Source: Monosiga brevicollis MX1
Lineage: Eukaryota; Opisthokonta; Choanoflagellata; Craspedida; Salpingoecidae
NCBI RefSeq assembly: GCF_000002865.3
Contig: NW_001865039.1
Location: forward strand, 2,444,073-2,508,072
Length of the DNA stretch: 64,000 nt
Direction of reading: 5' to 3'
How positions within the stretch are numbered: position 1 is the first letter of the stretch; every line of letters starts with the position of its first letter. Positions 48,480 through 60,168 of the stretch are shown piece by piece. The notes under the pieces are model-generated. The model was not told where the DNA came from. It saw only the letters and a program-made list of their open reading frames with translations, and did no database searches. The position numbers were made by a program, and so were the translations under genes.

Positions 48480-48680
48480 GAGCACACCGACACCGACACC
48501 GACACACACACTAACACAGACACAGACACACACACAGAGACAGAGAGACAGAGAGAGACAAGAGACACAGACACACAGACACACAGACACACAGACACAC
48601 AGACACACAGACACACAGACACACAGACACACAGACACACAGACACACAGACACAGACACAGACACAGACACACACAAAG
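48480..48680. repeat. (ACACAG)n-type microsatellite
   Basis: Compound repeat beginning with cacacc/gacacc units and GA-rich units, then about fifteen tandem copies of an eight-base acacacag unit, ending with acacag units at about 48675. Lies in the intergenic region 48294-49083 between AP5Z1 and the phosphatase-kinase gene. No exon was found elsewhere in that region. Confidence 0.9.
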
Positions 48681-49083
48681 GCGGTTGTACAGTTCACCAC
48701 CAAATCGAATCAGCATGTTGATGTCAGAAAATTAATTCTCAACTTGTCTCGCCTCAAGCAAGCAACTTGTCAGTGTGCGCAACCCTCTCTCGGCACCCTG
48801 TTGCTGGCCTCGTGTCTCACGCGTCGTTCCGGTGGGTGGGTTGACCAGTTTCTCAAAGGTAGGCAGAACTGAACCGAGACTTGGACCGACTTTTCAAAGC
48901 GGGTCCGTATTGTCGTGGGTGTCTAGATTAAAAACAACGAAGCTTCGGGTTTTCTTTTCTTTTTCGGTCCAGACAAAGTCGATCGAGCCCCGTGGCCTCT
49001 TGATGCTCAAATGTGTCTTTGTATGACCGTCTCGATATGATGCACTCGTGAACCACTTCAGACCTTTTGCGTGGTGTCCAAGC

Positions 49084-52000
49084 ATGGACGCCACCACCCA
49101 AGGGGTTGAGGCTGTGGCGGCCCTCCTCAAGGTACGTTCGTTCCACTGGTCTCGCAGAGCCACCGGGCCTGAGAGTGAACTTCGCCTTGCTCTATGGTCA
49201 CATAGGGATTGAAGCCCCACTATGCTAGCTTGGATGAGCTCTTCGCCAGCCACGCCAACGAAGGTGCGCACCATGCACTAGACTAGACTGATAGTGAAGA
49301 GATATAGGATTGCAACGGGACTTGCGCGTGAAACGAGCTGTATCATTCTAGTTCTTCTTCACCTCTTTGCGCTCGCGTCCTCTCGTGCACACTGTGTTCC
49401 AGCTGGAGCTGTCGCCCAAGATAAGCTGGAAATCTTGCTGGGAGAAGAACTGCAGCTACCTCTTCTGGTCGTTCAGCGCTTGCTGGCTATCTGCCCCTCG
49501 CAAGAAGTGTGTGAACAGAACCGATGTGCCTGCAGGCTCTGCACCAGCTTGTCCCCGCTCACCCTGATCCCTGCTTTCCGGTTCAGGTGCACTATGTGGA
49601 CTTTATGCAAAACGTGATTATGGGCCACATCGGCTTGGCCATCCAGCAGCAAAATGTCAATCTGAGGTGTGGGCCCTCATTTCACTGCCTTGCTTCACTT
49701 GCTGTTTGTAACCCCGCACGCACGCTGTTTTTATCGACACTGTGGTTCCTGCCGGGCTTAGGGTGGTGTTCAAAGCCCACGACGAGCGGTCATACGGCTA
49801 TTTGACACGTCATCAATTGGTGCTTTTGCTGCGCACTGTTGTTGACCTTCCTACACCAGACATTGATTTCCTTCTCAACCAGGTGACTCCACATGCCCCT
49901 CTACCCCCGTCTTGGGTTTTCTGAATATTCCCCCTCATCCCGTGCGCCATTGTCCTTCCCCTCTTGTGGCCCAACTTGGGCGTGTCTTTGCCAAATTGTC
50001 TATTCATCTGGGCGTGCTTGTAGGTTGATCCCAACAGTCGGGACAAAATTCGTTATGACCAATTTGTTGCCAAGTTCTTGCGGTCAGAGACGCACCAGTT
50101 ACGCCGGGAGGCCTGGAAGGTGGCCCACAATCGGACTTTGCGTGCCGTAGTCGTCATCACCCGACACGGCGCGCGCTTCCCTCTCAAGCCTTTTCCTCGT
50201 GACAACCATTGGCCACAAGAGAAGGAATTTTGGACCAACTATGGCGGTCGCCTCACCCCAGTCGGCTGTCAGCAACACACCAAGTTGGGTGACATGCTGC
50301 GTGCCAAGTACCTCGAGCGCGATCAACTGTTGGAAGTGGATGTACGTCAACTGGGCAGAAGGGGGTATTAAAAACGTCTTGCCTGTTGGGACGTGTTTGT
50401 TCAAGCCAAAGTCAAATTGCGACACAGCACCTCTCCGCCTTGTGTGCTCTGTCTATGGCGGAAGACTTGTCAAGATATCTTCTTCTCGTGTACGCTCACT
50501 TGATCACTTCTTTCAACCGTAGGCTCCTAATCTGTCAGAGCGTGTGGAAGTGTATACTTCCAATTCTGATCGCACGTTGATGTCAGCTCAGAGGTGAGCA
50601 AAGACTCTGGTGGCAATCCCCGTGAACCCAATGCTGACCAGCGTTCTCCTCATGGCGCAACATGCTGGGGTCTTGGGTCCATTACCCATACAGTCTGCTC
50701 CTGGGTTTATTTCCAGCTTCGAGCCCACAGTTCATTCTGGATGAGGATTCCAAATTTGCAGAACGGCAGCGCAATCTACGGGTTCGCTCCGAGACTTTAT
50801 CGCGTATCCGGAGCATCGAAAGCGGCAGTGGAAAACGAATCAGCAGTATGTCACCTTTGGCATGGTTGGAAAATGTTGACGCTCATGTCTTTTCTTCATG
50901 CGGTTACGAAGCCTCACCACTGTGTGTGTGTGTGTGTGTGTGAACGCCAAACAGCCTCCATCCCCATCCATGTGGCCAGTGAAACTTACTCTCCACTCTT
51001 GCACGGATTCAAAAGCAATGCAGCATACGAAACCATCAAGGACGATGTCTTTGAACGCGGTTTGTTCATGGACATTGTGGCTTACTGCTGTTCCTATTTT
51101 TGGGCCGCTATTGACCGTCAGCTCACCCCTCGTCTGACTTATATGGCAGCCCCTGACTTTCGGGCCTGGGCAGAGGAGGAACGTTTTTGCCAGCTGGCTG
51201 AAAAGCTGTGGCAGAGCACGGGCTTTGAGAAGATTGACCCCGAGAAGTCAATGCGTAAACGCCTGCAGAGCTTCCAGTCTGTCTCACAGCAAATCAATAT
51301 CGAGCGCGCCCACGCCATGGAGGTGCGTGTGTTCTACAGAAATACCTGTACGGAAGACGATCACGTTTTACAGACTTCATTCATGACCACAAAAAAAAAA
51401 CACATATGCGTGTCGATTTAGCTCTTGTTCAATGCAGACGACGTCACGCTGGATGTGGCGGACGAGGAGGCGCTGCGTCTCGTCGCCGACACTATTTGTC
51501 GACTGCGATATTGCGGTTTGAACAACGATGATCAACGTCGCTTGGCTCGTCTCGCCGCAGGCACCTTGCCAAGTTAGTTGGTACCTATTGTGAAACACCG
51601 ATGATCATCTCTGGCCATCATGGCCTGCCGAGTGTGGTTGAATCTTTTGACCGAAGAGAAGGCATCAGACTTGTTGATATCACGGCAACTGCACTGGCCT
51701 GTGCAACTGCACTGACCTGTGCGCGCTCGTATGGTAAATCATGAACCTGTAGGTACAATCATCAACAGCTTCCAGTCGATTGTAGATGCCGAGGAACGAA
51801 ATGGCCGTTTGACAGTGTACAGCGCGCATGACAACTCACTCATGGCCATGCTGGCACAACTGGGTATGTTGATGATCTTGCAAGCAGTCTGTGGTATTTG
51901 GGTGGCTGACCTGCGGCGTGCTATCTGTGCATCTCATCTGAGTGTCACAATACGGGGCGTGCCCCGACTGCGTGAACTTTGTATCCGTGGCGTTTAGGCT

Positions 52001-55000
52001 TCAAAGATTTTCCGATTCCCAGCTTTGCTGCCCACCTGTGCTTCGAGTTGCACGAGCCCGTGCCTGGGCAGTACCGCGTGCGTGTCCTCTACAATCCCGA
52101 TCCAGATGTGTTTGGATTCGCAGACGATGAGGCTGTGCTCCAAGGCTACAAGGAAACTGTTCATCCATGCCGGGTCCCGGGTCCTGGTCAAGTGTGTTTC
52201 GGCTACTCATGCCACGCATCATGCCACAGACAGGCTTGCCTCCTTTTGAATGGATTTTTGATCTAAGGATGCTGCATTTGTGATTTTAGGTTTGCGAATG
52301 GCTTCAGCGTGACTTTGGTGACATGGAGTTTGAAGGTACGGCTTTCGTTTCGCCGGTGGCTCGATCTTTCCCTCCCTCATGTGTCAGGTCGACCAGGGGA
52401 CAGCTAGGCACGTTCATTTTGCCCGTTGTATACCCTCAATACGTGTGTGACCGTGGTGCGCGGTTGTTTGCAGAGTTCAAGAATATTCTGATGCTGGATC
52501 GCCGAAGCTTTCCAGTTCGTCATACCTGTCAGGGTGTCCTGGTCTGAATTTTTTCATTCGATCTTACTTTGTGGCCATGGACTGCTACTCTAGGATGAGC
52601 CAAGCTGGGTGGAGGCCACCTCAGGGGATCCATGGGCGCTCGATGTGGAGCCCGTGGCTGTGCCCGGTACCACCCAACCGATGTACATGGTGGATGGTGC
52701 GTGCATTGCAACCTGGTTGCGTTGTTCACGTGCTTGCATTGCATGTTAACAAGCACTCGCTTTTCCTGTCATACAGGCGTTCCACGCTATGTGCTCCGGC
52801 CATTTGACAAGCAAGTGGCAGGCCATGTTGATACCATTATGCTCCTGGGTGACACCAAGGTGTGTGGTCGCCCAATAGCCTATCGCCACCAGCAGCACTA
52901 AACTACGCTCTCTTTTCTTTCTGTCGCCCTCCTCGCCCCGCGTGTCTTATTTGTCTTACTCCTGGTCTGCTCTTGCTAGCTTTGCAAACCGCTGAATGAT
53001 CAAGAGCACGCATTTTACATGCTGCTCTTTGGTGATGAACAGGATGCAGGTGCGCACCGCTTCTTGCATCTGTCCTATCTGGAGCTGCACCGTCTCTTCG
53101 ATGCTACCCTAACCACTGCAATCTTTTAGCTGTGGTCCCGCGGACTGTGAGCCAGCCATTTACGGCACAGGCAAAAGAGTTTTTAAATGCTCACTTGGAT
53201 CAAGTACAGCTGTGGCGCGATTGTTTGAAGCGATGGATGCCGCGCTATTTTGGCACCATTCACGTTCAGCAAGAGGACATGCAAATTGCTTCCTCAAACT
53301 CAACATCTTCCCTTGCTGAAGCGACACCCAGTCGTCCCAAGTTTGTAAGTGTGCGACATCTGGTTTCCTGAAGTTGGCTTATCGCTGCTCCTTTCTCTTT
53401 TTTGAAGGCTACCTTTTTGGTGCAGCTCTTGACATACATAATCTCATCACTGCGTCCTGCGGTGGCTTACCCTGAACGGGCAGACACGGCGCTTTACTGT
53501 GAGCGTGCCCGAGTCTTACGCCTCGCCCGACCCAACTTCTTTCAAGGTCTGTGTTTGGTGCGCGAGGAGCCAAGCGGATCCAAAATGCTTGAAAGAGGGC
53601 TGAAAAAGCTGCTCTGCAGGGGCTGACTTCTAGCCCAATGTGATCTTCATTATTTCGCATCAATCTTTGCTCATTTTATTTTTACGCAGGGGTTGCGCCG
53701 TTCCTCCATCGGCTATCCTGCTCTCCCGCTTGAGGAGGTGCCGAGTCATGCCGAGGATGCTGACATGCTGGCCATGAGCCACCGCGGGGTTGTGGTTGGC
53801 TGGGTACGCATGCAATCATGGCTAGCGGGCACTTGGCAGCAGCGTTGGCTTGTTCTACAGCAGGTGCGGTATTATTCTCGAGCCAACATGCTAGGACACG
53901 GATCAGGCCATGAAAGTTGTGGGTGTTGTTGACTGCATGCTCAACTTTGCACCCGGCTGGCAACGTCGTCACCACAAACGGCCGCACATGTGTAGGACAA
54001 ACTGCTTTGGTTTTCTGAGATGGTGCGTGACAGTGTCAGCACTCCACCTTTGGGCGAGCTGAATTTGCGCGAGCACGTGGCCCAAGTGCTGCGCCCTACA
54101 GACGAGCGTCTAGCAAACATTGCCTGGCCTCAGGTCCGTCCTGAAATCAAATCGATGCTTGTGCGCGTTGGTCTGCACCACTTTTATGAGCCTGGCTCAC
54201 CTTTGGCTCACCTTTGCTCGACGCTTCTTCCCATTGCGCACCCGATCGCATCAGGTACCCGGCCAAGGGTTTGGCTTAGTCACCGAAAGTGACGCCATCG
54301 TGCCACTCTACTTTGCATCTCAAGTGCTGTGCCTCAAATGGTACAATGCATGTCGCGGGTTGATCAACAGCCTGCCGGAGGAAGGTATGGTCCTGTTGTT
54401 TCTCGAGTTTGGTACACCCTCTCCTGTGCATATTCTGGCTACCTCTGCTCTGTCAGTTCTCAAGTGGGTTGACTGCTTTGATGTATAGAAGCTGCTCTCT
54501 ATGAGCCGTCCCTTGTGCGCGAATCGACCATCAGCTCCTTGGAAAAGGCTCTTCTTACACTCAAAGAGGTACGTAAATGCCTTCGAGTAGCCAGCTCGAG
54601 GCAATTGACGTGCTTGCGTGCTACCTCTCTGTGGTGACGATGCCGTCTCCGTTGATACCTGCAATAGGCAGAGGAATTTTTGGTGGCTACGCGATTTGGC
54701 ACCAAACCTGTCGAGCGCAAGCAAGCTTGGCCAATGCGCACCAACAGCCTGCGCCAGGCCTCAAGTCAAGCCACCAATTCAGCCCGCAAGCCGCGCGAAC
54801 AACGTCACGTGTTTGTCGTTCTGGAAAACCTGCTGGTCACTTATGATGCACCATGCATCCTCGACCTCAAGCTGGGTACGCCGAAGATCTATTGCAATTG
54901 TGCAGCGTTTCTCATGCGTGTGTGTGCCTGTGGACAAGCTTGGCTCAATCTTGTTTTTTTTTTTTTGTCTCTCGACCTCCCAATGTTCGTCTTGGTGGTC

Positions 55001-55979
55001 TTGTCGCAGGTACTCGCCAACACGGAGACGACGCCACTCCAGAAAAGCGGGCGCGCCAGCTAGCAAAATGCCAGGCCACGACATCCGGCTCACTTGGCAT
55101 TCGGTTAGTTCGTAAAGCCAGGGTGCATCTGCACTTCAGGTGCACGTTCGGCGCGCTGAGGTGAAGCCAGAGGAGGGGGCGCAGCTTTCGCATATTGCCT
55201 GTGCCCATTTTGCCATTGTGGCGACTCATCATGCATTGTGTTCCCCCCCAAAAGCTGTTGCGGCATGCGCTTAGCGCAAGCCGACGGTAGCGTTGAGGTC
55301 TACGACAAGTTTTATGGCCGACAGTTGACCAAGGAAACATTTGAGTCGCAGTGTTTACGCAAGTTCTTCTCTGTAGGCGAAGGCAGCTTGCGGCGTGAGG
55401 TGAGCACGCTTTCTAGTCATGAGACAAACTTTCCCAGGCATTGCGCTTTGGAGATTTTGTGTCGCCAGTTCTTGTATTTCCATTTGTTTTGGCTCATCCT
55501 GGCTGCCCCTGGCTGATGGCACGGAATAGGTGATTGAGAGCTTGGCTGTCAAACTGGATGCTCTCATCTCAGACTTGAAGCGTTTGGATGGGTTCCGGTA
55601 TGCACCATGTCTGGCGAATCCGCGATCAGAGAGGGCGGTGAGATGTTGTAAGCGCCTTCTCACCTTTATGATCCGTATTAGTTTTTACTCGTGCTCCCTT
55701 TTGGTGGTCTACAACGGACGCGTCAACGACCTGCGCGCTGAGCTTCGCTTGATCGACTTTGCCAAGACAATTCACCCGGCATCACCACTCTGGAATGCCG
55801 ACGTGCACAAGTACGTTTCATGACAAACCGTTCATTCGCCGTTGCTGGCGGAAGAACCTTACTTGCAGCTCACCTGCTGCATTCTTCCACAATCCAGGGG
55901 CTCGGACGCGGGTCAACTTTTTGGTCTCACCCAACTGCATCGAATGCTAACTCGACTCGTGTCCGAATCCGAGGCTTAA
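49084..55979 (+). CDS. EF-hand / histidine acid phosphatase / inositol hexakisphosphate kinase fusion
   Basis: Early exons: 49084-49131, 49206-49263, 49403-49506, 49587-49666, 49762-49882, 50024-50341, 50523-50593; about 20 more follow. Degenerate EF-hands ([31 protein letters not shown]) precede a branch-2 histidine phosphatase with catalytic [31 protein letters not shown] and the proton-donor motif [12 protein letters not shown]. Exon 52594-52696 ([20 protein letters not shown]) joins in phase 0 to RRSFP at 52514 and leads into an IP6[41 protein letters not shown]-like insert follows (about 53690-54480), then [20 protein letters not shown] (PxxxDxKxG), [28 protein letters not shown] and the ending [14 protein letters not shown]. 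It could make and remove inositol pyrophosphates. Two adjacent genes remain an alternative. Confidence 0.72.
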
Positions 55980-56250
55980 AGAGCGGCACACGGCGCTTCA
56001 AATGTTGAGCTGAATTCATGCACAACGCCTTGATAGTATGAGCTGCACTCGCATTCACTGCTTTGCAAATCGATCAATTGAAAGTCAACTTTCTGTCTTT
56101 GAACAAGACTGTCATACCTACACTGTTGTTGTGTTAGCGAGTGGGATGTGCTCTGCAGCGAGCGTTTGAGTCAGGGCAAATCCACAAGGACGCGAGGTTG
56201 AGGAGCTACACTGCCCTCCGTCTCGTGGTCTTGCGTGCACTGCCCTCATG

Positions 56251-59200
56251 TCACGAAGTGGCGTTAAGAGTGAGATCATAGGTTTTGGGCGGCAAGGGTA
56301 CGCGGTCCAAACTGTCGGTGACGCGCGTTTTAATCTTTTGTGGAGGGGCCTTTGTGTGTAGCACGTCCGGTGGGTTTTCGGTGGAAGCTTTTGCCCAGAG
56401 CAAGGCCAGATGCTTCACAGGCTGGGCGGAGCGTTGACGTCGTCGAACAAGTGGAATCGTGACACCAGAGCTGTTGGTATGTAGAAGCGAAGGGGGCACG
56501 AGGACACCTTCCTTGCCTTCCTCATTGTACTTATTGGCACGTTGACTCTCGTGTCTTGCTGACCGCGAGCTCTTGGGCTTGCGCTGTAGCTCTGATGCTC
56601 GTTCATGTGGGCGGCCCCGCCGATGACGGTTCGGGCCGAGGTCATGTTCTTTTGCCGTGTGCAACGGTGCAGCAACAGTACTCGGCTGTGCCAAGTCGGC
56701 CAGTCGGGAGGAATCTAGAGCCTGCGGGCGACGCAATCCTTTGCCTTCCAAGGCAAGGTCTCGAGCAGCGTTGAGCGGCTGTGGTACGGCTGGTTCCTTG
56801 ATGATCAACTCAAAATTGCCAATGTCAGCCTTGCGGTTATCTCGGCGATCAAGCACTAGCTTCGCCAGATCCTCGAGTGCTCGTGGCACGAGATCAGCTG
56901 GGCAAAAAGCAACAAGGCCAAAAAGGGGGCAGTGAGTTCGACGTAAGAAGCCATCCCCTCAAGCCAGATAGAAGGTGAACGAAGTTCAAGGCCAAGGTTG
57001 TACAGGTTCTTACCTGTGACGGCTGTAGAGTGACTTAGGTCGGGTGAAGCATTGACCTCAAGGAGCCAGGCACTGTGCTGTGCGTCAAACATAAAATCCA
57101 AGCCAAAGAGCTCAAAGCTGTTCTTACGGGCGTGCATTTGCGGTTGAGCAGCAAGAAGGACGGAGCGAGTCACTTGACACATGGCGGGAAAAATTCTTTC
57201 GGCCCAAGCGGTGCCTTGCCCTTGTTCTTCAAGATGTGCGCGGTACTGGTTAGATGACCACATGCATTCGGGAGCCCACTCGTCGGTGGGCCGTATGGTT
57301 GCAGACTTTTGTATGCTGTTGTTACACAAATGGGTGTCGCTGCTTTCCTTGGAGTGGATATTGTCCAGGTTGAATGGTACAGAGCTGAACCTACAACCAT
57401 GGGCCACGGTTGAGACGGGTTAGGGAGGGTGCATGTGAACATGTGCAACAGGGGCCCGTGGAAGCCCAAGATAGCCAGGCGGCACACTGGACACGAGAAC
57501 CATGTGCGCTTGATCGTGCATACCTGAGGTAGCTGTCGCGATAAATGTAGGCAACAAGTGGGTTCCAAGATGTCACAACAACCCACTGCCGAATATCAAA
57601 CTTGGTGTCGTTGATTAATAGCGTATCCTCCACGTACTTTTGCGCCACCCAAGTCTCCTGGCTGGAGCCAGCCACAATGGTTTGGAGGATGAAATCGAGC
57701 CGATTCTCACAAAAGATACCACGTCCTCGAGAGAGGGCTGCCGGCTTGACCACCCAGACGTTGCGGTGGCCATATGTTGCAAGTTGAGGCCAAAGCTCGT
57801 GCACTGTGGCCAGCAGCTGGGCCGCTTGGGCATCCATGGCTGCAATTTGCTTTCCAGCTGGCGTCCAACTGGCCCGGAGCTGGTCAGCCTGTCTGCGCAA
57901 CTCTGCCGAGCAGAAGGGGACGATGGCCTCTTCCAGCTCACTGCGACCTGGGGCCGTGGGGCCATGTGTGATCAAGCGCCGCGCAGCCACGCTTTCGGCA
58001 GGGGCAGGGGCCGGGGACGGCCCCTCTTCTTCGCCATCTGCATCACTGTCGCTTTGAAGTTCAGATTCCTCGGCCAAGGGCTGTGCGGGTGTTGCGTCAA
58101 GGCAATCTAACAGCGAATAGTGCAAACGTAGCACCGCCTCCCATTCAACTGCAGTGAGTGCACTGTCAAAGGTTACCTCGGCTTCTCCAGCCGTGCGATC
58201 GTGCACGTAGGCGTTGACAGCCCGGTACGAAAGCGACAAAGCTTGGTGGGGCACATCCCAGTCCATGCGCTTGCGCAGCAGGGTTGTGGCACACAACAGC
58301 CGAAAGTGCTGAACAAAGCCGGCCAGACCATCCTTGTCGACTAAACTGAAGCAGTGAGGGTAGAATGTGGATGCAGGTTCAGAAGAGGTCCAATGTGTGT
58401 CCTCGAGTAGACGAGTCAACCCAGCCTTGGTGGTCAAAATACGATGGCCGTCAAAGTGATTAACCATTTGAAATGGTTTCATCGTACGAAAGTTGAGGTC
58501 TTTCATGTGACAAGTAAATATAAGGTTAGCTGGATAGCCTTGAAGCGCGCGTTGCACTCGGGCTTCCATATCTTCGGGGCGATCGTGTTCGTCACGGTTG
58601 TCGTCATCGTCGTGGTCTGTGTTATGGTTACTTCCGTCGTCGTCACTGTCCTGAGCATCAGAATCGGTCTCTCCTGCCAAACTGTCGCCAAACTTCTCAT
58701 CTTCAGTCCTGTCCTCATCGACCAAGGCGTTTTGTGGGCGCTGGACATGCGATGCTTCCGGAGTGCTCCGTTGGCTACTGCCTATGAAAGGATCAGGTGT
58801 GTTTTTACCGGGCAAAGCTGGCTGGCTAGCTGGAGCTGGCCGTGCCCGGACCCCACTAAGGTCATAATCACTCAAGTTATCGCCTGCAGCACCGCACGCA
58901 AGACAGCAAAAGTTCATCGGTGTGGAAGCCAGCCAGAGTAAAGTTGTGAGGCAGCACCAAATAGTCACAGCTTTTCCTGATGCAAAGGCATCAGCTTGGC
59001 TTGGGATGGAGAGTTTGCGTACAGACCTTCTATCGGAACGGGCTTTGCCACCCAGCCGCGACGCTCCAGGGCCTCGCGCATGCCTTCGTAGCGTCCGTAC
59101 ATGGTATAGACCTTGCCAGCACGCACGGCTTCCAAGGCACGCTGAATGAAGGAGTGCAAGCATGGGCAAGCCGACCTGGATGAGAGTACAGGTGCTATAG

Positions 59201-60168
59201 CAGGTTTACAGGGCACGTTCATGCGAAATGCACGAGCCTCTGGTGCACAGAATTAAGGGGCGGAAAAGGGGTGAGGGGATGCTTCCAACCTCGCGTGCGG
59301 CTCGACTGGCTTCCAAGGGACCTCTTCGACCTGAGAATGGGAAACAGGATGAGGAGAGACGAACGGCGCGGAAAGGTTGAGCAGCCTCAATATTTGAGTT
59401 GGTGGCAAAGGGTTGGGCATCTGCAAGTGCCAGCTATCTTCAGCAATTGACAGCAAAGGGGACCAACCAGGTGCTTTGGGTGCGGGGCGGTGTCGGATAA
59501 GTGTACCATGAGAGGGGTGCTGACAGGAACTGTTGATGCAGGCACAGGGGGGATCAGGGGCCTTGGTGCGTCGGTTAGGGGGCGACGCTGCCTTGAGTGC
59601 TATTCTAGTGCCATGGTCTCGGCGCGTTGAGTGCTTTCCTCGGAGCTTGTTGGCGCCTGCCTTGGCCGAGTCAGTCGAGAGCGCCGGCAGAGAGAGGCGT
59701 TCTCGGCAACGTTCAGCGTGGGCTCGCTGTCGCTCGTGAAAGTCGGACGTAACCAGACTGGCTGAGGTAGGGTTGATGGTTGGCTGAAAGCGCATATGGG
59801 CCTGTGCGGCAGCTACGACTCGTTGGTGATGCAGTTCGCGCCGAGCCTCCAGTTGTTCAGCATTGAGGTTGGCAGCCAGCTTCCGTGAGATGCGGTTTAA
59901 TTTTGGAGCAAAGGTCAGATCCTGATCGGCCTCTGAGCGAGTCTGCTGACGACGACGCGTGTGCCAGTTCTCGCGCTATCTCAACGCGACGGCATGGTGG
60001 ATGTGTGGGATGAGGGCTTGGTATGAGACCCGTGCGAGTGGCACAGTAGCGCGTCTGCCACCCAAGTGCCAACGAGCGAGAAAATCCCAAAGAAGTCGAG
60101 GCACAACAGACCTCCGTGGCAGTGGTTGCAGCCAGTTTGCCCGGTGATGGACTGGGCAGGTCCGACAT
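56251..60168 (-). CDS. Tubulin glycine ligase-like protein (TTLL3/8 family)
   Basis: Six exons: 60168-60112, 59975-59290, 59175-59027, 58883-57524, 57390-57014, 56897-56251; phases agree, giving 1091 aa. The N-terminal part has two ciliary-type F-x-P-x-I/L-N motifs (LTFAPKLNRISRKLA and RFQPTINPTSASL). The TTL module begins with AVRAGKVYTMYGRYEGMREA and ERRGWVAKP, has a long acidic insert, and continues with NVWVVKPAALSRGRGI (ATP-grasp), KFDIRQWVVVTSWNPLVAYI, HLCNNSIQK, MWSSNQYRAHL and RKNSFELFGLDFMFDAQHSA ending WLLEVNASPDL. The LCNNSIQK and RKNSFEL motifs are those of the TTLL3/TTLL8 glycylases, which add glycine to tubulin side chains in cilia. A basic 200-residue tail may bind microtubules. 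Glycylation activity is inferred from family. Confidence 0.87.

Follow-up and report, generated by a model that had tools for sequence, protein, structure and literature searches.

A histidine acid phosphatase and a kinase of the IP6K type lie one behind the other in the genome of the choanoflagellate Monosiga brevicollis MX1, and the question raised by this locus is whether both are made as a single protein and, if so, how such a protein would work. The locus lies in a stretch of 64,000 nucleotides of contig NW_001865039.1 (positions 2,444,073 to 2,508,072, forward strand; hereafter the window, whose numbering is used below). A first-pass annotation of the window had proposed one gene for a fused protein, acting as a convergent bidirectional enzyme on 5-diphosphoinositol pentakisphosphate (5-InsP7).

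The gene model was built by hand from the raw sequence and its joins were verified by script. It comprises 29 exons on the plus strand (49084-55979), read in one frame of 1,237 residues with no internal stop, and is predicted from the genomic sequence. All 28 introns, of 74 to 181 bases, are bounded by GT and AG, and 27 of them carry G at donor position +5. The exon at 52594-52696, which the first-pass annotation had given as the bridge between the two enzymes, was matched exactly together with both of its junctions, and the phosphatase and kinase motifs listed there (RHGARFP, DRTLMSA, HD, those of the kinase and LIDFA) were all found in the one frame.

Coding content of the bridge between phosphatase and kinase

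The bridge consists of exons 13 to 15. Its coding content was scored with codon preferences taken from the other 26 exons (1,174 codons) against the introns of the gene as background, the bridge itself being held out. In the linking frame, the 63 bridge codons score +0.32 bits per codon, while the other five frames score negative and contain stops (one stop in four of these frames and four in the fifth); none of 20,000 draws from the introns was both open and as coding-like. A second training set of 1,693 codons, taken stop to stop from three long open frames elsewhere in the genome and perhaps including some intron, gave +0.25 bits per codon, again with 0/20,000 draws as good. The 29 codons of exon 15 that precede Met651 behaved likewise (+0.25 and +0.31 with the two training sets, 0/20,000 draws each). 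Since the draws overlap, all of them coming from some 2.7 kb of intron used for the background too, these values are read as strong and not as literal probabilities.

Several observations weigh against the model. Exon 13 (15 codons) taken alone is reached by 165 and 453 of 20,000 draws with the first and second training sets respectively, and exon 14 (14 codons) by 75 and 368; singly, these exons are less clear and neither is decisive. Among the splice sites of the bridge, the intron 13 acceptor rates poorly (31% of all AGs reach its score) and the intron 14 donor is middling (7% of GTs do so). Further downstream, exon 19 looks non-coding by its score (-0.6 bits in total over 44 codons), and this stretch is the least sure part of the gene model. 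An alternative donor for exon 19, located 11 bases upstream, was rejected because exon 20 onward then falls out of frame. The acceptors of introns 16 and 25 score below zero. Intron 13, of 138 bases, holds no in-frame stop and the open frame 52290-52547 runs through it; it could therefore be retained without interrupting the protein, the join being in frame either way.

Two adjoining genes, phosphatase then kinase, could have been wrongly joined across a short gap, given that in-frame ATGs are available at 52323, 52491, 52681 and 52687 and that intron 12 or 14, left unspliced, would bring in stops whose last base is 52266 or 52547; however, the gap from those stops to the ATGs would then be 57 to about 420 bases with the wider choices leaving the coding-like exons 13-15 untranslated, a separate kinase gene would need one of these few ATGs since the kinase N-lobe starts directly after the bridge, exons 13-15 taken jointly are coding in the frame that fits the phase of both flanks, and the splice scores of introns 12-15 fall inside the range of the gene's other introns, so that this alternative was judged unlikely after the test of coding content and frame, and we regard it as very improbable. 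None of the seven poly(A) hexamers searched for was found in 52101-52800, nor after the end of the fused gene in 55980-56400, which makes this search uninformative on one gene versus two. With a continuous in-phase frame and a bridge that codes under both training sets, the single fused gene of the first-pass annotation was borne out, and phosphatase and kinase are predicted with high confidence to lie on one polypeptide.

The two enzyme halves and the parts around them

A Pfam profile search of the 1,237-residue protein returned six families at E up to 1, namely IPK and His_Phos_2 and, below their cut-offs, EF-hand_7, PH, EF-hand_6 and DUF4807. The sequence lays out, in order, a predicted EF-hand-like N-terminus, a histidine acid phosphatase, a short acidic bridge and an IP6K-type kinase split by a PH-like insertion (Table 1). 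The EF-hand-like pair and the PH-like domain are parts absent from the first-pass annotation.

Table 1. Predicted features of the fused gene in the window.
Feature	Window position	Strand	Basis
Whole gene model, 29 exons, 1,237 codons + TAA stop	49084..55979	+	in-phase GT-AG joins
EF-hand-like pair, residues 96-153, degenerate loops	49662..50071	+	EF-hand_7 25.3 bits, cut-off 30
Histidine acid phosphatase domain, residues 175-560, exons 6-12	50135..52095	+	PF00328 91.8 bits, whole profile 1-354
RHGARFP catalytic loop, residue 184	50162..50182	+	motif in frame
Bridge phosphatase-kinase, exons 13-15, residues 593-655, two introns inside	52290..52696	+	coding in frame, 0/20,000 intron draws as good
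IP6K N-lobe, exons 16-18	52777..53344	+	residues 653-765 vs human IP6K2 (unverified letters) score 86, z 13
Insertion within kinase, residues 766-1034	53306..54781	+	no similarity to human IP6K1/IP6K2 (unverified letters)
PH-like domain in insertion, residues ~855-965 (Pfam covers 859-910; rest by eye)	53786..54371	+	PF00169 22.4 bits
IP6K catalytic core, residues 1045-1228	54812..55949	+	PF03770 158.8 bits, profile 1-189 of 190

In the phosphatase half the motifs are intact (RHGARFP at 184, DRTLMSA at 259 and HD at 516). The match to His_Phos_2 (PF00328) stands well over its cut-off of 23.6 bits and, with RHGxRxP, the second Arg and HD all present, places the domain in branch 2 of the histidine phosphatases; the whole-profile match bears out the complete histidine acid phosphatase that had been proposed. 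Among the best 60 of 96 matches in PDB, the top relatives were 3it0 (61 bits), prostatic acid phosphatase (about 50 bits) and the lysophosphatidic acid phosphatase ACP6 (42 bits), with the acid phosphatases 1cvi and 4job included, whereas phytases reached at most 22.5 bits. The distance from RHG to the TPxG strand, start to start, is 30 residues here versus 119 in the genome's own PPIP5K, a distance too short to accommodate the GAF insert, the element by which substrate is fed in PPIP5K. For the yeast Vip1 phosphatase, PMC11836120 describes such a GAF insert, no conserved HD histidine, and at the donor place a Glu whose mutation to Ala activates instead of killing. With HD kept and no room for a GAF insert, the phosphatase is not one borrowed from PPIP5K. 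Both this missing room and the best matches being to general acid phosphatases speak against pyrophosphate specificity. That the phosphatase acts within inositol phosphate metabolism seems to us an evenly balanced proposition, while removal of the 5-beta-phosphate in particular is rather doubtful.

On the kinase side, the IPK family (PF03770) is matched far over its curated cut-off of 22.2 bits. The human IP6K1 and IP6K2 sequences used for comparison were unverified letters. In Smith-Waterman alignments, the core scored 372 (z 72) with this human IP6K2 and 315 with this IP6K1, compared to 172 with the human IPMK core and 167 with the Entamoeba IP6K core. A phmmer search of PDB, a result on the other side, gave 13 matches to the core, none named human IP6K, in which IPMK (62.8 bits) stood slightly above Entamoeba IP6K (55.5 bits); IP3-kinase A reached at most 24 bits. 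The kinase appears closer to IP6K than to IPMK or to the inositol trisphosphate (IP3) 3-kinases, and the higher score with the human IP6K2 letters than with the human IPMK core sustains the IP6K type proposed at first pass; it is probably an active IP6K.

The N-lobe motif LRPF..QVAGH...KLCKPL...EHAFY precedes the PH-like domain. The N-lobe alone gave two PDB matches in phmmer at E up to 10, neither of them an inositol kinase, and its score with an IP3 3-kinase of the same genome (contig C53) was not significant (39, z 3.7, under the best of 500 shuffles, 48). Residues 766-1034 show z values of -0.7 and -1.2 with the unverified human IP6K1 and IP6K2 letters respectively, and the PH-like domain sits where these two align an unrelated linker. 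With the N-lobe before it and the catalytic core after it, the PH-like domain is therefore inserted inside the kinase. Its stretch gave 14 PDB matches at E up to 1 (among them myosin X, DAPP1, GRP1, cytohesins, PLEKHA7, PLEKHB2, KIAA0053 and IPCEF1), which are PH-domain proteins by name or which we take to be such; the lowest E (6e-4) is a sum over two short segments, no segment by itself doing better than about 0.01. The Pfam match, below the cut-off of 25.1 bits and covering half of the profile (5-56 of 105), counts against the assignment. The domain keeps Arg in WQQRW and has Gln at a spot that is often Lys in lipid binders, Lys at that position being common among them.

The EF-hand-like pair also scores under its Pfam cut-off, a point against that assignment. 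Both loops carry Gln at position 12 and are not canonical calcium loops, so that calcium control is unlikely from the sequence and the pair is probably not calcium-binding. No signal peptide-like or membrane stretch was seen in the fused protein, the highest 19-residue hydropathy being 1.38, which fits a cytosolic site for both enzyme domains.

Inositol phosphate genes elsewhere in the genome

The genome (39.5 Mb in 57 contigs, designated by C numbers) was searched exon by exon, a procedure that can miss genes. IPK matches at E up to 10 numbered nine and fell in three loci, these being the fused gene, C53:1.49 Mb and C56:169 kb. Within the reach of such searches, the fused gene is the only IP6K-type gene found and no IPMK-type kinase was detected; a search with the human IPMK core, uninformative for want of a control, gave no match at E up to 10. 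The other two loci (C53:1493051-1494097 and C56:169249-170162) are of the IP3 3-kinase type. One exon frame of the former had 11 PDB matches at E up to 1, of which seven were IP3 3-kinases at 1e-13 or better and the remaining four were MAP kinase 9, near E 1; the latter shows IP3 3-kinase motifs by eye. PMC8024741 describes the IP3 3-kinase family as a late arrival that came with calcium signalling in metazoans, yet these two loci belong to a choanoflagellate.

A canonical PPIP5K is present separately on contig C45, and IPPK, ITPK and SPX genes were found as well; these partners in the pathway agree with the working proposed below. The exon-by-exon search for a Siw14-type phosphatase gave 0 matches with two candidates scored. 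With the PF00328 model, seven matches were obtained in four loci, namely the fused gene, the PPIP5K of C45, and two further loci that are neither (C32:45907-47105 and C56:1098080-1099873). A BLAST-type search with the phosphatase gave seven matches at E up to 10, all within the fused gene, and is insensitive compared to the Pfam model.

Other observations concern the surroundings and the rest of the genome. A CA/CACAGA-rich simple repeat lies about 400 bases upstream of the fused gene start (window 48480-48690), and a convergent neighbour on the minus strand (window 56251-59205) has open frames that resemble, by eye, a tubulin tyrosine ligase-like protein. In a DLG gene at C54:455307-456664, the second PDZ domain is identical to PDB 6x1p (mbDLG, mb for Monosiga brevicollis) at 97/97 aligned residues, which marks the genome as that of this species or a very near one. 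Clusters of PDZ domains, often in long open frames, were seen on C10, C37, C43, C48, C51 and C56, with at least 146 PDZ matches (150 of 197 candidates scored).

Proposed working and comparison with known enzymes

In the working that we propose, one gene would give one cytosolic protein holding both enzymes. The kinase would use ATP to convert inositol hexakisphosphate (InsP6) to 5-InsP7. The phosphatase would form a phospho-histidine at His185 of RHGARFP, Asp517 of HD serving as the putative proton donor, and would take phosphate off a substrate kept close to the kinase; an inositol phosphate or pyrophosphate is the likeliest such substrate. The opposing activities would set a local level, as PPIP5K does for 1,5-bis-diphosphoinositol tetrakisphosphate (1,5-InsP8), and the PH-like domain may place or gate the kinase at a membrane or via a soluble inositol phosphate. 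As a whole, a fused two-enzyme protein with opposing activities within inositol phosphate signalling is the best explanation, to which we would give an even chance. The 5-pyrophosphate is the most attractive target of the phosphatase but not the best-supported one; reversal of 5-InsP7 is a guess, and phytase-like or unrelated monoester activity is equally likely. The likeness to acid phosphatases and the missing GAF insert keep InsP6, inositol pentakisphosphate (InsP5) and non-inositol monoesters as candidate substrates. The boldest form, in which Monosiga's sole IP6K forms the 5-pyrophosphate of InsP7 and also removes it, was built independently of Vip1 and has its direction chosen by lipid or inositol phosphate binding to the PH-like domain, is unlikely.

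The strongest alternative accepts the fused protein but would give the phosphatase a non-inositol substrate (a phospholipid, lysophospholipid, phosphoprotein or nucleotide monoester), with both enzymes recruited to a membrane by the EF-hand-like and PH-like parts. The closest solved structures being acid phosphatases, ACP6 included (best 60 of 96), the presence of the PH-like domain and a phosphatase that is not PPIP5K-like all agree with this possibility, whereas fusion with an IP6K points to one pathway for both halves by analogy with PPIP5K, which is the only other pairing of a kinase with a branch-2 histidine phosphatase known to us and works on one pathway; we consider it a serious contender that falls somewhat short of an even chance. 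Within the preferred explanation itself, and with overlapping odds, a phytase-like phosphatase could consume InsP6 or InsP5 and so limit the substrate of the kinase instead of reversing its product. RHGxRxP and HD are both present, the arrangement given for phytase in PMC11836120; against this stand the solved phytases scoring far below acid phosphatases (best 60 of 96) and a net charge of -3 over the 386 residues of the domain, which is not strongly basic, and this sub-case is unlikely.

The enzymes known to control 5-InsP7 are kinases and phosphatases on different proteins, and a two-headed enzyme, PPIP5K, is known only for the 1-position. If the only IP6K found in this relative of animals is indeed joined to a histidine phosphatase, the two activities would have been brought together on two occasions in evolution, each time with a different, unrelated kinase, an argument that having opposing activities side by side is of benefit in its own right. 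The fused protein would also be a natural test construct, in which one residue switches off each half and the product ratio can be measured, and the PH-like insertion in the kinase would offer a means of IP6K regulation that is new. Such a pairing with its inserted domain would surprise a specialist, even though choanoflagellates are known for unusual domain combinations.

No report of an IPK or IP6K fused to a histidine phosphatase was found among the titles and abstract openings listed from the open-licence literature, with UniProt and InterPro outside the search, so that the architecture may sit there unremarked; nor does it appear in the available parts of PMC8024741, PMC7217449, PMC10897400, PMC3019232, PMC3090757, PMC13384419, PMC12077091 and PMC11836120. 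Table 1 of PMC8024741 covers 30 species and no choanoflagellates. Viral contigs yielded no relatives of the kinase core or the phosphatase and plasmids no phosphatase relatives at E up to 1e-5, collections in which few protists are expected and from which nothing follows on conservation.

Among known systems, the PPIP5K/Vip1/Asp1/VIH enzymes are alike in carrying an inositol pyrophosphate kinase and a branch-2 histidine phosphatase in one protein. In PPIP5K, however, the kinase is N-terminal and of the ATP-grasp type (PF18086), a family not among the six found at E up to 1 in the fused protein, where an IPK-fold kinase is C-terminal and the phosphatase N-terminal; the yeast PPIP5K phosphatase, as described in PMC11836120, has the GAF insert and Glu for the donor Asp, whereas the fused protein keeps HD and has no GAF room. 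The pairing is not a rearranged Vip1, since the genome has a canonical PPIP5K of its own at another locus and none of the PPIP5K traits considered is seen in the phosphatase. The fused protein is, on this comparison, not a PPIP5K, and a PPIP5K-like working holds at most by analogy. Of the convergent bidirectional enzyme put forward at first pass, the pairing of the unrelated IPK fold with a histidine phosphatase stands and looks independent of Vip1, while convergence on 5-InsP7 is kept as a proposal.

With IP6K/Kcs1 (PF03770), the fused protein shares the core, the N-lobe motifs and the SLL and IDF motifs, but it carries the PH-like domain where the unverified human IP6K1 and IP6K2 letters have an unrelated linker; no IP6K is known to carry a phosphatase. 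With the prostatic, ACP6 and bacterial histidine acid phosphatases it shares a whole His_Phos_2 domain with RHGxRxP, DRT and HD, but no secretion signal was seen in it and the domain is joined to EF-hand-like and kinase parts. A further comparison is offered by PFKFB (6-phosphofructo-2-kinase/fructose-2,6-bisphosphatase), in which a small-molecule kinase and a histidine phosphatase in one chain set the level of a signal, although its kinase is unrelated, its phosphatase belongs to branch 1 and its substrate is a sugar phosphate. In the boldest form of the proposal, the Monosiga protein would add a third design of kinase/phosphatase switch, one that combines an unrelated kinase fold with a histidine phosphatase of the acid phosphatase type.

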